From positions 1 through 64,000 of the forward strand of contig JAQBZH010000009.1 in the NCBI GenBank assembly GCA_027622005.1: 64,000 bases of DNA. Reading direction: 5' to 3'. Below the pieces are notes generated by a model, which worked only from the letters and a program-made list of their open reading frames with translations, did not search any database and was not told the origin of the DNA. Both the position numbers and the translations under genes were made by a program. This DNA comes from Bacteroidota bacterium. Lineage in GTDB: Bacteria > Bacteroidota > Rhodothermia > Rhodothermales > UBA10348. Below, in pieces: positions 45,613-52,589 of the stretch. The first letter of the stretch is position 1; every line of letters begins with the position of its first letter.

Positions 45613-45945
45613 ATGGCTAAATCACAGACGGATCGATTTTCAGAAGATCATCAAAAACTGGCAGATATAGCCAAGGCTTTGTCTCATCCAGCACGGGTCG
45701 CCATTCTTGAAGTCTTGGCTTCTAGAAATGTCTGCGTGTGCGGAGAGGTGGTAGCTGAAATTCCACTTTCTCAGGCGACGGTTTCCCAACATTTGAAAGT
45801 GCTGCTCGAAGCAGGCTTGATAGTTGGAGAAATCGACGGTCCAAAATCCTGCTACTGTGTCAATTGGAAGCGCCTCGGCGAGGTCCAATCCATAATGACC
45901 TCTTGGTTTAGCGACACCGCTCGGTTGAAGGCAGACTGCTGTTAA
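45613..45945 (+). CDS. arsR: ArsR-family metalloregulator
   Basis: A 110-residue winged-helix repressor. After [20 protein letters not shown] comes a CVC pair ([10 protein letters not shown]), a cysteine pattern like that of E. coli-type ArsR, which binds As(III) with cysteines of helix 3 (ELCVCDL). The recognition helix follows ([20 protein letters not shown]). A CC pair ends the protein (KADCC), possibly another ligand. It lies 40 bp after the palindrome and is followed by arsM, so it should derepress arsM on arsenite. Confidence 0.9.
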
Positions 45946-46033
45946 CTATCAAAAAAAAAGTACTGGAAGAGCCGGGAAGGCTAGTTCATTGTGCGGACCC
46001 GACGACTTCCAGAACGTAAAACCAATAAATACC

Positions 46034-46891
46034 ATGGAACTAACTATTCAAACCAAATCATCCGGTTGCTGCTCAGAACCATCGAGCGGCGTTTCTCGCG
46101 TCCGTTCGACGAGTGAAGAAATAAAAGCGGATGTAAGAGCGAAATACGCGGACGTTGCCCAAACGGAGACGGTAGGCGGATGTGGATGCGGATGTAGCAC
46201 TGAAAATCCATTCAACCTTGAATCGTACGAAAGCCTTGACGGCTACGAGATTTCGGCTGATTTAGGCCTAGGGTGCGGCATCCCAACTGAAGTCGCCGAT
46301 ATTCGAGTCGGGCAAGATGTTCTTGATCTCGGATCAGGAGCAGGGATAGATGCCTTTGTGGCCCGCCTAATTGTCGGTAGCGGCGGAAGTGTAACCGGGG
46401 TTGACTTCACACCGGAAATGGTTGCACTTGCCAAAGCTAACGCGGCCAAACTGGGGTATGACAACGTCCAGTTTGTTCTGGGCGATATTGAACAACTTCC
46501 GTTTGAGGATGCTTCATTTGATCGCATTATCAGCAATTGCGTGCTCAATTTGGTGCCCAATAAAAAAGGTGCCTTTACCGAGATGTATCGCGTTTTGCGC
46601 CCCGAAGGGCAGTTTACCGTATCGGATATCGTACTAGATGGTGAATTACCGCTTTCTATTCGCCAATCGGCCGAAGCCTATGCCGGTTGCGTTTCCGGAG
46701 CGATTCACCTCGACGAATACACCGATCTGCTCACCAAGGTAGGCTTTTCTGATGTTCAGCCGCCGAAAATCAACGAAATCAATTTTTCGGATGATTTTCT
46801 GGCTAGCTATGCAGGGGCTTCTGATATCGCTGAATTTAGAAGCTCTGGAGCCCGTGTGTTGAGCATTACCGTAACCGGTAAAAAGAGCTAG
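46034..46891 (+). CDS. arsM: Arsenite methyltransferase
   Basis: About 285 residues from the ATG at 46034 (an upstream TTG would add 15). It has the SAM-dependent methyltransferase fold with motif I DVLDLGSGAGIDAFVA and Asp motif VTGVDFTPEMV. Arsenic-binding cysteines are seen in ...GLGCGIP (about 77-79), CVLNLVP (about 164) and YAGCVSGA (about 220), plus an N-terminal CGCGC cluster (GGCGCGCST). ArsM methylates As(III) and uses thioredoxin-type reductants, and a thioredoxin gene converges on it. The two stops share the palindrome CTAG (46888-46891). Confidence 0.92.
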   Translation: MELTIQTKSSGCCSEPSSGVSRVRSTSEEIKADVRAKYADVAQTETVGGCGCGCSTENPFNLESYESLDGYEISADLGLGCGIPTEVADIRVGQDVLDLGSGAGIDAFVARLIVGSGGSVTGVDFTPEMVALAKANAAKLGYDNVQFVLGDIEQLPFEDASFDRIISNCVLNLVPNKKGAFTEMYRVLRPEGQFTVSDIVLDGELPLSIRQSAEAYAGCVSGAIHLDEYTDLLTKVGFSDVQPPKINEINFSDDFLASYAGASDIAEFRSSGARVLSITVTGKKS

Positions 46892-47465: not shown

Positions 47466-48575
47466 ATGAGACTTCTTTCTCACCTAATCAGATTCTCTTT
47501 TGCCATCCTGGTTCCCGTTTTGGTTCTGGGCGGCTGCGCCCCTACCGAGACTCCCGTCGCCGAATATGACGCATCTACTGACTCGTTACGCTTTGAGGGC
47601 GAAGTGCACTTTCGCAACGTTAAGCAGCTCACTTTTGGGGGTAACAACGCCGAAGCATACTGGAGTTTTGATGACGAAAAAATAATCTTCCAAAGCGATT
47701 GGTCCGAAATCAACGATAAAGGATGCGATCAGATTTACGTCATGGACCCGGACGGAGAAGAGGGGTACAAACTGGTATCAACAGGCATGGGACGGACCAC
47801 TTGCAGCTATTTTTTGGCGGATGGACGCATCATGTTTGGATCAACCCACGCGGACGACAAAGAATGTCCGGCGCCCGTCGCGTTTGGTCAGGGACGCTAC
47901 GTTTGGCCAATTTATGCCTCGTATGATATTTACGTGGCAAATGCGGATGGCTCAAACATTGAGCTTTTGATCGGCGGAGAAGGGTATGACGCTGAAGCAA
48001 CGGCTTCGCCCGATGGAAAGTGGATTATCTTCACATCCACTCGTTCCGGCGATCTCGAACTGTGGCGCTACGAATTGGCTACGGGTGCTTTATTGCAGTT
48101 GACATCCGGCCTTGGTTACGATGGTGGTGCGTTTTTCTCACCCGATTCGAAGAAGATCGTTTGGAGAGCAAGCCGACCTGAAGGCGAAGCGGCAACGCTC
48201 TATCAAGAATTACTGGCTCAAGACGTTGTCGAGCCATCTGCCTTGAACTTGTTTGTAGCCGACATCGACGGGAGCAACGTGATCCAAGTCACCAACCTTC
48301 CCGGAGCAAACTGGGCACCGTTTTTCCATCCTTCAGGCGAAAAAATTATCTTCACCACCAATCATCACATGGACGAGGGAAAAGGTCGCATTTTTGATTT
48401 GTTCATGGTGAATTTAGACGGGACAGCTCTCGAACAAATCACCCACAGTGGGACATTTGATGGGTTTCCCATGTTTTCCCATGACGGAAAGCGCATTGCA
48501 TTTGCGAGCAATCGAAACGCGGCCCGTACGGAATCGAGAGACACGAATGTGTTCGTTGCAGAATGGGTTGAATAA
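47466..48575 (+). CDS. TolB/PD40 beta-propeller lipoprotein
   Basis: A 369-residue protein with a lipobox (VLVLGGC) and several TolB-like PD40 repeats: WSFDDEKIIFQSDW, ADGRIMFGSTHAD, ASPDGKWIIFTSTRSGDLELW, FSPDSKKIVWRAS, FHPSGEKIIFTTN, FSHDGKRIAFASNR. It is likely a six-bladed propeller in the periplasm or outer surface. There is no Pal/Tol neighbour, so it is not TolB itself. The next operon begins right after it, with a palindrome two bases after its stop. Confidence 0.87.
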   Translation: MRLLSHLIRFSFAILVPVLVLGGCAPTETPVAEYDASTDSLRFEGEVHFRNVKQLTFGGNNAEAYWSFDDEKIIFQSDWSEINDKGCDQIYVMDPDGEEGYKLVSTGMGRTTCSYFLADGRIMFGSTHADDKECPAPVAFGQGRYVWPIYASYDIYVANADGSNIELLIGGEGYDAEATASPDGKWIIFTSTRSGDLELWRYELATGALLQLTSGLGYDGGAFFSPDSKKIVWRASRPEGEAATLYQELLAQDVVEPSALNLFVADIDGSNVIQVTNLPGANWAPFFHPSGEKIIFTTNHHMDEGKGRIFDLFMVNLDGTALEQITHSGTFDGFPMFSHDGKRIAFASNRNAARTESRDTNVFVAEWVE

Positions 48576-48576
48576 T

Positions 48577-48600
48577 ATTATTTAGCCAAGGCTAAATAAT
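48577..48600. promoter_or_regulatory. DtxR/MntR-type operator candidate
   Basis: A perfect 11-bp inverted repeat, ATTATTTAGCC (48577-48587) and GGCTAAATAAT (48590-48600) around AA. The core TTTAGCC-x2-GGCTAAA resembles binding sites of the DtxR/MntR metalloregulators (TTTAG...CTAAA). It lies two bases after the propeller gene stop and 51 bp before the importer substrate-binding gene, where a repressor could block the promoter. Confidence 0.6.
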
Positions 48601-48614
48601 GAAGATTATTGTAT

Positions 48615-48650
48615 ATTGGGGGTTCAGTGTCACTGAACCCCCAATTTTTT
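48615..48650 (+). terminator. Perfect 15-bp hairpin plus T-run abutting the importer start
   Basis: ATTGGGGGTTCAGTG (48615-48629) pairs with CACTGAACCCCCAAT (48631-48645). Counting the last base of the stem there are six T in a row (48645-48650), and the importer ATG follows immediately at 48651. The hairpin has the form of a strong intrinsic terminator for the propeller gene. Its position also means it would hide the translation start of the importer mRNA, so it may be an attenuator or a translational switch. Confidence 0.75.
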
Positions 48651-49598
48651 ATGTGTAGACTTTTTTGCGTTTTTTCCGCGGCCTCCTTGTTTTTGACGTC
48701 CTGTCAGTCATCAACCAGAAATGACGCGCCAAAAACGGTCGATGAAGCCAATCCGATCCAAATCGTCGTCACGACGAGTATGATTGCGGATTTAGCCGCT
48801 GTAATAGGAGCACCTTTTGTAGATGTAAAGGGGTTGATGGGCCCGAATGTAGACCCCCATCTATACAAAGCATCTGAGGGTGATGTACGGCTCATGACCG
48901 GGGCCGACCTCGTTCTTTATAGTGGGCTGCATTTAGAAGGCAAAATGGTCGACATTTTTGAGCAAATGGAGCAAAGGGGGCAAAAAGTCTACGCACTTAC
49001 AAACGCACTAGCTCCTGAAGATCTGCGCGAGTCCGCCTTGTTTGTCGGCAATCACGATCCGCACGTATGGTTTGATGTCACCCTTTGGGCAAAGGTGGCA
49101 AAAAGGGTAGGGGAGTTACTAATTGAATATGATCCTAGCCATGCTGAACAATACACTGCTAATCTTGAAGCTTACCTTTTGCAGTTGGAAGAATTAAATT
49201 CTTGGATCTACACTGAAATTGAGAGGATTCCCGAAAACAGGAGGGTGCTAGTAACCTCGCACGATGCTTTTGGTTACTTCGGGAGGAGGTACGGAATGGA
49301 GGTGCGAGGACTTCAAGGATTGTCAACTGCGTCCGAAGCTGGAACAGCAGACGTCCAAAATTTGGCAACTTTCGTAGCTGATCGAAAAATTCCTTCGATG
49401 TTTGTCGAAGCGAGTATTTCGCCCAGAGGAATTGAAGCCGTTCTGGCTGCCGTGCGAGATCGTGGATTCGAAGTTCAGATTGGCGGCACCTTGTACGGCG
49501 ACGCGTTGGGGTCGCCGGGGACTAATGCAGATTCCTACTTAGGGATGGTAAGAGAAAATGTGCGATTAATAGCAGACGGCCTGATCGGGGAGCAATAA
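48651..49598 (+). CDS. Mn-type metal ABC transporter, substrate-binding lipoprotein
   Basis: About 315 residues from the ATG at 48651; a longer reading from 48609 would pass through the hairpin. The lipobox is FLTSC. The cluster A-I (ZnuA/PsaA/TroA/MntC) fold shows the four metal ligands: His in NVDPHLY, His in HDPHVWFD, Glu in SMFVEASIS and Asp in TLYGDALGS. The His-His-Glu-Asp set is the manganese/iron type (PsaA/MntC); there is no His-rich loop, unlike ZnuA. It is the first gene of a four-gene operon. Confidence 0.9.
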
Positions 49599-49603
49599 AT
49601 ATC

Positions 49604-50353
49604 ATGGATTACGCAATCGACATACGGGATTTGACGGTCGCGTACCGCGAAAAGCCTGTTTTGTGGGACGTTGACCTTCAAGTGCCCTCTGGCGTCTTGG
49701 TCGCCATTGTTGGTCCAAACGGGGCTGGCAAAACGACGATGATAAAAGCCTCGTTGGGCCTCATAAAACCAGCAGCGGGCTCCGTGTTGATTCACGGGCG
49801 GCCGTATTCCGAACAAAGAACCACGGTCGCATACGTTCCCCAACGAGGTAGTGTAGACTGGGACTTCCCAACAAATGTTTTAGATGTCGTATCCATGGGA
49901 CTTTACGGACGTCTAGGGTGGTTTAAGAGGCCCGGCAAGGCCGAGCGCATTGAAGCCATGAAGTCGCTGGCACAAGTTGGAATGGAAGAATATGCCACAA
50001 GGCAAATATCGCAGCTCTCCGGAGGGCAACAACAGCGAGTATTTTTGGCGCGGGCGCTCGTTCAAGATGCACGAGTGTATTTTATGGACGAACCGTTTCA
50101 AGGCGTGGACGCGACCACCGAAAGAGCAATTGTCGAATTGCTTCAAAACTTGAGAAAACAAGGAAAAACGGTGGCGGTTGTGCATCACGATCTTCAAACC
50201 GTTCCCGAGTACTTCGATCATGTCATGCTGCTGAATGTCCGGCGAATTGCGAGTGGACCCGTGGAAGATGTTTTCACGGAAGACAATTTGAGAATGACAT
50301 ACGGTGGGAGGGTGGCGTTTGTATCAGCCCTTTCGGCGGCACCAAAGCCATGA
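49604..50353 (+). CDS. Mn-type metal ABC transporter, ATP-binding protein
   Basis: A 249-residue ABC ATPase. Walker [19 protein letters not shown]-loop [20 protein letters not shown] with the Q-R-x-x-x-D-W-x-F-P pattern seen in Mn/Zn importers, signature [15 protein letters not shown], Walker [13 protein letters not shown] and H-loop VVHHDL. It lies 5 bp after the binding protein and overlaps the first permease by 4 bp. Confidence 0.94.
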
Positions 50354-51483
50354 TCGATCTTTTAGTAGACCTATTCTCGGATTATACGCTGCGTACGGTA
50401 GCCCTTGGATCAGCGCTTCTTGGAATTACAGCGGGGTCGTTAGGTGGATTTGCCCTTTTGAGGCAGCAAAGCCTACTTGGGGATGCCATTTCACATGCTG
50501 CTTTACCTGGCATTGCAATAGCCTTTCTTATTACTGGAAGTAAAGCTCCGTTGGTGTTAATACTTGGCGCAGGAATAGCCGGTTGGATTGGAGCCGCCCT
50601 TATTTCAGTGGTAACCACTCGAACTCGAATAAAATACGATTCTGCCCTGGGGATCATGTTGTCTGTTTTTTTTGGGTTTGGGCTTGTGCTGTTGACCTAT
50701 ATCCAGCGGCAGCCAAACGCGAATCAAGCAGGTCTTGATTCGTTTCTATTTGGCCAAGCAGCTGCACTGGTTGAACAAGATGTTCTATTGATATTTGTGA
50801 TCGGTTCCGCGGTTATGGTCTTGATAACCTTGTTCTGGAAGGAATTCAAATTATTATCCTTTGACCCAGATTTTTTGGGCACATTGGCTTACCCGGTTAG
50901 GCTCCTCGACTACTTGTTGACGACATTGTTTGTAGTCGCCATTGTGATTGGATTGCAGACGGTCGGCGTTGTATTGATGAGTGCGATGATTATTGCCCCA
51001 GCCGCCGCGGCAAGGCAGTGGACTGATCGATTGGGACGAATGATTGCGCTTGCTGGTTTATTTGGGGCGGTGTCTGGAGTTGGAGGGGCAGTGACCAGTA
51101 GCCTGATTCCATCCTTACCAACCGGCCCGACGATTGTGTTAATCGTAAGTGGAATTGTCCTCGTTTCGCTCCTTTTCGCGCCCAATCGAGGCTTAGTTTT
51201 TAGACGGATACGAGATTGGCAGGCAGGAAAGCGTTTGCGTGTTGATGCCGTACTGGTCGATTTGTATACGCTCGCATCACAGCATAGCTCCGCAGAATAC
51301 CCTCATTCCGAGCGTGTTTTGGACGTTATGTCGACCATTTCAGGGCCGGCACATCGAACGCTCAAAGTGTTGAAGGATCTCGATTTAGCCAAACCCATAG
51401 ATTCTACCAAATGGAGTTTGACCCCAGAAGGCGTGCGCCGAGCCGAACGAGTCCTTAAACGGCAATTCGGAGGTACCCCATGA
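50350..51483 (+). CDS. Metal ABC transporter permease with C-terminal winged-helix-like tail (1)
   Basis: A 377-residue protein. The ABC-3 membrane domain (about 10-280) has eight or so helices and the loop [25 protein letters not shown]. After the last helix (about 285) a soluble tail of about 85 residues follows ([18 protein letters not shown]... [43 protein letters not shown]), which looks like a winged helix-turn-helix with a T-P-E-G wing. Standard MntB/ZnuB proteins lack it. It overlaps neighbours by 4 bp on both sides. Confidence 0.9.
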
Positions 51484-52589
51484 GTCCCTCTTTCGAAATT
51501 CAATTAATCGCGGTGGTAGTAGCCATCTCCTGCGCGCTCCCGGGTGTGTTTTTGGTTTTACAGCGCATGTCTATGATGAGCGACGCCATTAGCCATGCCA
51601 TCTTGCCGGGTATTGTTGTCGCATTTTTCCTAACTGGAAATTTGAGTTCGCCTTTGATCATTTTGGGGGCTGCCGCAGCAGGACTATTGACGGTAGCGCT
51701 CGTGGAACTGTTGAGAAAAACAGGGCTGTTAAAAGAGGACGCCGCCATAGGCATCGTATTTCCGGCTCTTTTTAGTGTTGGCGTGATATTAATTGCTCAA
51801 TACGCTGGCGATGTTCACCTCGATATCGACGCGGTACTGCTCGGCGAATTGGCGTTCGCACCTTTTGATCGCATTACGTTGGGTGGCACAGACATAGGGC
51901 CGAGAGCACTTATCGTGATGGGGGTGATCCTTGTCGTAAACATTGTTTTTATTTCGGTCTTTTTTAAAGAATTGAAGCTTATTTCCTTTGACCGAGCATT
52001 GGCCGGAGCGTTGGGGTTTGCACCGGCACTTTTACACTATTTCTTAATGGGGTTGGTATCGATCACAGCTGTAGGTGCTTTTGATGCGGTCGGTTCTATT
52101 CTTGTGGTAGCATTGATGGTGGCGCCTCCAGCATCCGCCTATTTGTTGACCGACGGACTCAAACCTATGATCGTGGTATCCGTCGCCATAGGAGCAGTTT
52201 CAGCGATTACGGGATATTGGGTTGCGCACTGGTTGGACGCATCCATTGCAGGGGCGATGGCAAGCATGTCGGGGGTTTTGTTTCTTTCGATTTTAATTGC
52301 AGCTCCACAACGTGGCCTTTGGTCGGTTTGGAGACGCAAATCTAACCAAACGCTACTTTTCGGACGAAAGATGTTGGTTATTCACTTATATAATCACGAA
52401 GGCCTCCCTGAGGCGCAGCTAGAATGCAGAATGGATCATTTAGAAGATCATCTCAGATGGGACCATTCGTTTGCCAGCCGAGCCATTCGGTCTTCACTAC
52501 AAAACCACTATATTGTTCAACAGGGACCTCTGTTAATTTTGACGGAATCAGGCCGGGATTTTGCGCGATCATCTCTAGTGGACCTGTAA
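51480..52589 (+). CDS. Metal ABC transporter permease with C-terminal winged-helix-like tail (2)
   Basis: A 369-residue second permease (ABC-3 fold; LQRMSMMSDAISHAILPGIVVAFFL loop). After the membrane part (about 285) there is again a soluble tail (KMLVIHLYNHEGLPEAQLECRMDHLEDHLRWDHSFASRAIRSSLQNHYIVQQGPLLILTESG is its overall plan) of winged-helix character, shorter than a full DtxR protein. Two different permeases suggest a heterodimeric channel. It is the last gene of the operon; no dedicated MntR gene is seen nearby. Confidence 0.9.
   Translation: MSPSFEIQLIAVVVAISCALPGVFLVLQRMSMMSDAISHAILPGIVVAFFLTGNLSSPLIILGAAAAGLLTVALVELLRKTGLLKEDAAIGIVFPALFSVGVILIAQYAGDVHLDIDAVLLGELAFAPFDRITLGGTDIGPRALIVMGVILVVNIVFISVFFKELKLISFDRALAGALGFAPALLHYFLMGLVSITAVGAFDAVGSILVVALMVAPPASAYLLTDGLKPMIVVSVAIGAVSAITGYWVAHWLDASIAGAMASMSGVLFLSILIAAPQRGLWSVWRRKSNQTLLFGRKMLVIHLYNHEGLPEAQLECRMDHLEDHLRWDHSFASRAIRSSLQNHYIVQQGPLLILTESGRDFARSSLVDL

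Follow-up and report, generated by a model that had tools for sequence, protein, structure and literature searches.

How many controls act on a metal importer operon whose first start codon is preceded by both a perfect palindrome and a strong hairpin? This question is raised by a TroABCD-like operon in a window of 64,000 nucleotides (the whole stretch of DNA analysed) from a bacterium of the Rhodothermales. A first-pass annotation of the window read the palindrome as a DtxR/MntR-style operator and the hairpin as a possible second regulatory layer, acting as an attenuator or as a translational switch. Here, both elements are considered in the light of related loci, of ordinary terminators in the same genus and of known metal-responsive systems.

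Organisation of the importer locus

The features of the locus are collected in Table 1. The stop codon of the PD40 gene, the direct upstream neighbour in every genome of the genus (six of six) and in several sister genera, ends 2 nt upstream of the palindrome. The palindrome itself is composed of ATTATTTAGCC and GGCTAAATAAT, separated by a 2-nt centre (AA), and its two 11-bp arms are 100% complementary. The hairpin has the sequence ATTGGGGGTTCAGTG-T-CACTGAACCCCCAAT and its T-run is followed immediately by the importer ATG. Both elements were located where the first-pass annotation had placed them. The same annotation described the operon as a Mn-type importer; manganese is a plausible substrate, although not an established one, the closest solved relative of the binding protein in a PDB comparison being TroA (1toa, 1.7e-77). 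Elsewhere in the window (45613–46891), a gene for an ArsR-type regulator is followed by one for a methyltransferase resembling arsenite methyltransferase (ArsM), which likely form an arsenic-resistance pair.

Table 1. Positions of the importer operon, its upstream gene and the elements between them in the window.
Feature	Position	Strand	Basis
Upstream gene, PD40 / TolB-like beta-propeller lipoprotein	47466–48575	+	Annotated by sequence
Putative MntR-type operator, 11+11 bp palindrome, core TTTAGCCAAGGCTAAA at 48581–48596	48577–48600	.	Sequence conservation
Putative promoter: -10 TAAATA in right half-site and start region TGAAGA	48594–48606	+	Comparison only
Predicted intrinsic terminator: 14–15 bp hairpin (48615–48645) and T-run (48646–48650)	48615–48650	+	Kept in 6/6 genus genomes
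Importer substrate-binding lipoprotein, ZnuA/TroA family, 315 aa	48651–49598	+	PF01297, 4.9e-74
ABC transporter ATPase	49604–50353	+	PF00005
ABC-3 permease 1, C-terminal tail weakly resembling a DtxR winged helix (~last 88 residues)	50350–51483	+	PF00950
ABC-3 permease 2, C-terminal tail of ~76 residues, winged-helix-like by eye only	51480–52589	+	PF00950; tail basis weak

A conserved, very probable operator tracks the first gene of the operon

Perfect inverted repeats with arms of at least 11 bp occur at ~43 per Mb, and those with arms of at least 15 bp at ~18 per Mb, in ~0.8 Mb of this genome. The core palindrome is present as one exact copy in the 2.79-Mb genome, throughout which matches with two to three mismatches were not commoner than those to a reversed control pattern.

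Of 60 relatives, 55 have a match to the binding-protein gene, a strong one in 49 cases; the upstream DNA was read for 48 of these loci after orientation. TTTAG-N6-CTAAA, or a close form of it, precedes the binding-protein gene in 35 of these 48 orthologous Rhodothermales loci (28/30 and 7/18). In 10 further loci mntR lies directly 5' of the importer and the palindrome stands before mntR instead (10/10), in each case 45–94 nt ahead of the conserved EDYLK motif of mntR. The remaining three loci comprise one at a contig end (L083), one that has no motif (L044) and one with the weaker form GTTAGCCTTATCTAAC (L077). The motif also stands before homologues in several loci outside the Rhodothermales. 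The palindrome therefore moves with whichever gene is first in the operon, importer gene or mntR. This behaviour, together with the operonic linkage of mntR to the importer in relatives, strongly supports the operator proposed in the first-pass annotation. The inverted repeat falls within the promoter region of the importer operon, as placed by comparison with other loci, and very probably serves as a MntR-type operator; this is the strongest part of the finding.

A likely cognate DtxR/MntR regulator is encoded in the genome. Each genome of the genus carries one MntR scoring above the Pfam cut-off for PF01325 (5.8e-21 in G000), and its best PDB match and nearest solved relative is DR2539 (3.7e-43). 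Relative to B. subtilis MntR, residues D8, H77, E99, E102 and H103 are kept and E11 is not, which we take to be a Mn-type set and treat as a lead only.

In some relatives the palindrome occurs in tandem, as if two regulator dimers bind: before mntR in L085 and L089, where the copies overlap at an offset of 15 bp, and before the importer in L161 and L163, at an offset of 22 bp.

The importer permeases themselves offer another candidate for binding the palindrome, as both carry C-terminal tails of ~76–88 residues. The tail of the first permease gives a weak profile match to MntR and is predicted to fold as a winged helix (mean pLDDT 72); PDB matches to this predicted structure include IdeR, MntR and DR2539, at weak E-values of 0.004–0.05. 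The tail of the second permease is less clearly DtxR-like. As modelled, the first tail weakly resembles a DtxR winged helix, in the manner of a YtgCR-like permease–repressor fusion. Fusions of the YtgCR type have been reported from 11 phyla, and their binding to their own operator is known (PMC5599777). It is highly improbable, however, that the tails bind the palindrome in place of MntR, or that the palindrome is a promoter-proximal DNA element with no regulator at all. A free MntR is encoded in every genome of the genus, and in ten related genomes the first gene after this palindrome is mntR. Furthermore, the tails are short, leave no room for a metal-binding dimerisation domain and give weak matches.

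Importer transcription is likely to start upstream of the hairpin

Only 10–18 nt separate the palindrome from the first start codon downstream of it in several other genera. In addition, -35/-10 pairs overlap the palindrome in a number of loci: TTGACT-N17-TAAATT in L030, TTGACA-N17-TAGATT in L092–L094, TTGAAA-N18-TATATT in L033 and L036, and a further good pair in L088. These short distances and overlapping pairs place the starts inside the palindrome or at most ~15 nt after it, which in the window corresponds to a position upstream of the hairpin. A TGAAG(A) block just 3' of the palindrome is common to the window's genus, genus g9 and G027. We infer an importer start at about 48592–48611. Transcripts that begin upstream of the hairpin, a condition on which the first-pass annotation had made its second layer depend, are likely the actual architecture, as judged from comparative promoter positions only.

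No convincing -35 element was found in the window's genus; TTGAAT or TTGACT is present in four of the six genomes, at long spacing and inside coding sequence. A promoter consensus sought in tRNA-upstream and intergenic k-mers was mostly uninformative, TTG-N20-TAnnTT being only mildly enriched. A leader peptide, or an N-terminal extension through the hairpin from the TTG at 48609, was rejected, as the frame is not kept in G003 and G004.

A different placement would put the promoter inside the terminator, with TATATT (48612–48617) as the -10 element and a start in the 5' arm at about 48622–48625. An importer mRNA that started within the 5' arm would escape the terminator, which would then act on PD40 transcripts only, and the importer would be spared costly read-through of a strong terminator. 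This placement is consistent with the invariance of TATATTGGGGGTTCAG in all six genomes, including G005, in which ATT no longer pairs, and with its constant spacing from the palindrome. It is nonetheless rather unlikely, since none of the six genomes has a -35 or an extended -10 at the right distance and the starts of other genera coincide with the palindrome or are no more than ~15 nt away from it. The TGAAG block, which genus g9 and G027 also have, suggests that the ancestral start was there, and other terminators of the genus also have conserved 5' flanks.

The hairpin is conserved within the genus

By RNA folding, the hairpin forms 14 bp around a 3-nt loop, and the region as a whole folds far better than its dinucleotide shuffles (z = -4.4; 0/200). 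With a G+C-containing stem, a short loop and a U-run directly after it, the element has the features of an intrinsic terminator. None of the six genomes of the genus has lost the hairpin or the T-run. In the adjacent ATPase gene, four-fold degenerate sites have reached saturation among these genomes (identity 0.23–0.38), so the persistence of the hairpin indicates selection to keep it.

Neither TATATT nor GGGGGTTCAG varies among the six genomes. In the 3' arm, where base pairs were read by hand from the six-genome alignment, G003 has one U-G wobble, G004 has one wobble and one mismatch, and G005 has a U-A to C-G change with an added G-C pair. The alignment thus contains one compensatory pair and one inserted pair, both in G005. 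The T-run abuts the ATG in five of the six genomes; in G005 the ATG lies ~90 nt further downstream and the hairpin is still kept. The hairpin is not a dispersed repeat, as each genus genome contains at most one exact copy. Outside the genus, no terminator hairpin follows the palindrome in any of 42 loci. Conservation before orthologous importers, which the first-pass annotation had expected of a regulatory hairpin, therefore holds within the genus and fails beyond it. In genus g3 (L025, L026 and L028), a block GTCGTTCGGGGGTCGTAGT..AACCAAAC that is nearly identical in three species follows the palindrome roughly at the position of the hairpin in the window's genus, yet forms no terminator.

Ordinary terminators of the genus show the same signs

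A survey of ~0.8 Mb of the genome yielded 32 strong intergenic terminators, the importer hairpin among them. Only two of the 32 run directly into a plausible same-strand ATG, namely the importer hairpin and one that follows a PorV-like gene. Sequence-conserved terminators of the genus occur after PorV-like (six genomes), ExbD-like (five readable genomes) and STAS (four readable genomes) genes. The PorV-like terminator (G000:C83:51317-51355, reverse strand; L247–L252) abuts the ATG of the following gene, which encodes a lipoprotein, in all six genomes, and it has no palindrome or operator. Its stem is preceded by an invariant TTGAAACGAA, again in six of six. Ordinary gene-end terminators are conserved about as well as the importer hairpin. 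After these controls, the invariance of the 5' arm was set aside as a sign of a special RNA element.

A separate candidate leader terminator was noted in L212 (reverse strand, ~2216–2246), where a strong hairpin with T7 lies in a gene leader; the predicted upstream neighbour is divergent, so that the hairpin would not end that neighbour.

The controls bear on the proposal of two stacked layers, in which MntR represses initiation and the leader hairpin acts as a metal- or factor-responsive attenuator or as a start-hiding element. Several features fit this proposal: the hairpin falls within the probable leader of the importer, six species have kept it despite saturation at neutral sites, its T-run touches the ATG in five of them, pairing between the ATG and the 5' flank of the stem occurs in some predicted folds, and E. 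coli mntP provides a precedent for MntR combined with a leader element (PMC11647493). The leader before the stem is only ~10 nt long, however, so an antiterminator cannot form, and folding of the region revealed no alternative antiterminator fold upstream of the stem. An Rfam search for riboswitches and other elements returned two matches, both far below gathering scores. As for a hairpin that hides the translation start, the contact of the T-run with the ATG stands, but the ATG itself is left uncovered, as the stem stops 5 nt short of it, and G005 keeps the hairpin despite its distant ATG. Ordinary terminators of the genus are similarly conserved, one with the same ATG contact, and the hairpin is missing from 42 of 42 loci of other genera. 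Two stacked controls are accordingly considered unlikely, and the second layer suggested in the first-pass annotation, for which nothing positive was found, gives way to a hairpin that behaves like other gene-end terminators of the genus.

A probable PD40 terminator inside the likely importer leader

The sister genera indicate where such a terminator may have its function. In L035, L039, L079 and L045 a PD40-end hairpin stands before the palindrome, and in L044 the PD40-end hairpin is present and the palindrome absent. Compared with these sister genera with PD40 upstream, only the window's genus has the hairpin after the palindrome. Together with the terminator controls, this arrangement makes the end of the upstream gene, which the first-pass annotation had mentioned in passing, the best reading of the hairpin. 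As the terminator follows the operator in the window's genus, it would sit in the importer 5' leader.

It is proposed that metal-loaded MntR sits on the importer promoter at the palindrome and switches off the TroABCD-like operon once manganese, or a similar divalent metal, is abundant. The hairpin and T-run would form the intrinsic terminator of the PD40 gene and keep PD40 transcription out of the importer. Importer transcripts, most likely starting just after the palindrome, would have to read through this terminator, and some fraction of them would presumably end there, lowering importer expression in a fixed rather than a metal-controlled way. Passive attenuation is likely if transcription starts at the position given above. 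Taken as a whole, a MntR operator followed by a PD40 terminator with passive read-through in the importer leader is the probable explanation of the locus.

Having to pass a strong terminator would burden the importer in six species, unless enough transcripts read through or read-through is controlled. A MntR-repressed promoter could fire into a leader terminator whose read-through is set by metal, by MntR road-blocking or by an unknown factor; such control appears distinctly unlikely. On the 5' side, at the edge of the stem, TATATT is invariant in all six genomes though half unpaired, and it may have an additional function, for example as a promoter -10.

Comparison with known systems

The proposed operator resembles those of B. 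subtilis mntABCD/mntH, Treponema TroR–tro and Deinococcus DR2539–dr1709 in its metal-dependent DtxR-family repressor (here predicted), in the placement of a short AT-flanked palindrome across a Mn/Fe importer promoter, and in the linkage of mntR to the importer operon (here in relatives). Compared with known MntR/DtxR operators, the half-site TTTAG(C/G)C is, to our knowledge, the Rhodothermales clade's own version.

The YtgR operators of Chlamydia (ytgABCD and trpRBA intergenic; PMC6504234, PMC7755916) likewise combine an internal promoter, located behind another gene, with an operator of the DtxR family, and transcripts from the upstream side terminate nearby (here predicted); the YtgABCD-type operon includes a permease–repressor fusion that the first permease weakly resembles. 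In Chlamydia, read-through is proposed to be blocked by the bound repressor, whereas here the operator is followed by a predicted intrinsic terminator and a free MntR is encoded. E. coli mntP also combines a regulator site with a leader element at a Mn transport gene (PMC11647493), but it encodes an exporter and uses a Mn riboswitch with Rho-dependent termination, whereas the present gene belongs to an importer and has no such riboswitch match. The PorV-like, ExbD-like and STAS terminators of the genus share the long conserved stem and T-run and differ in having no operator in front.

Implications

Conservation of a terminator and its contact with a start codon resemble evidence for regulation, yet both are also seen in this genus at genes with no relation to the importer, and neither should therefore be taken for attenuation without a control. 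Were read-through at the importer nevertheless controlled, the metal importer would carry two independent brakes without a riboswitch. Judged by its distribution across orthologous loci, TTTAG-N6-CTAAA would represent a clade-wide MntR operator motif for the Rhodothermales.
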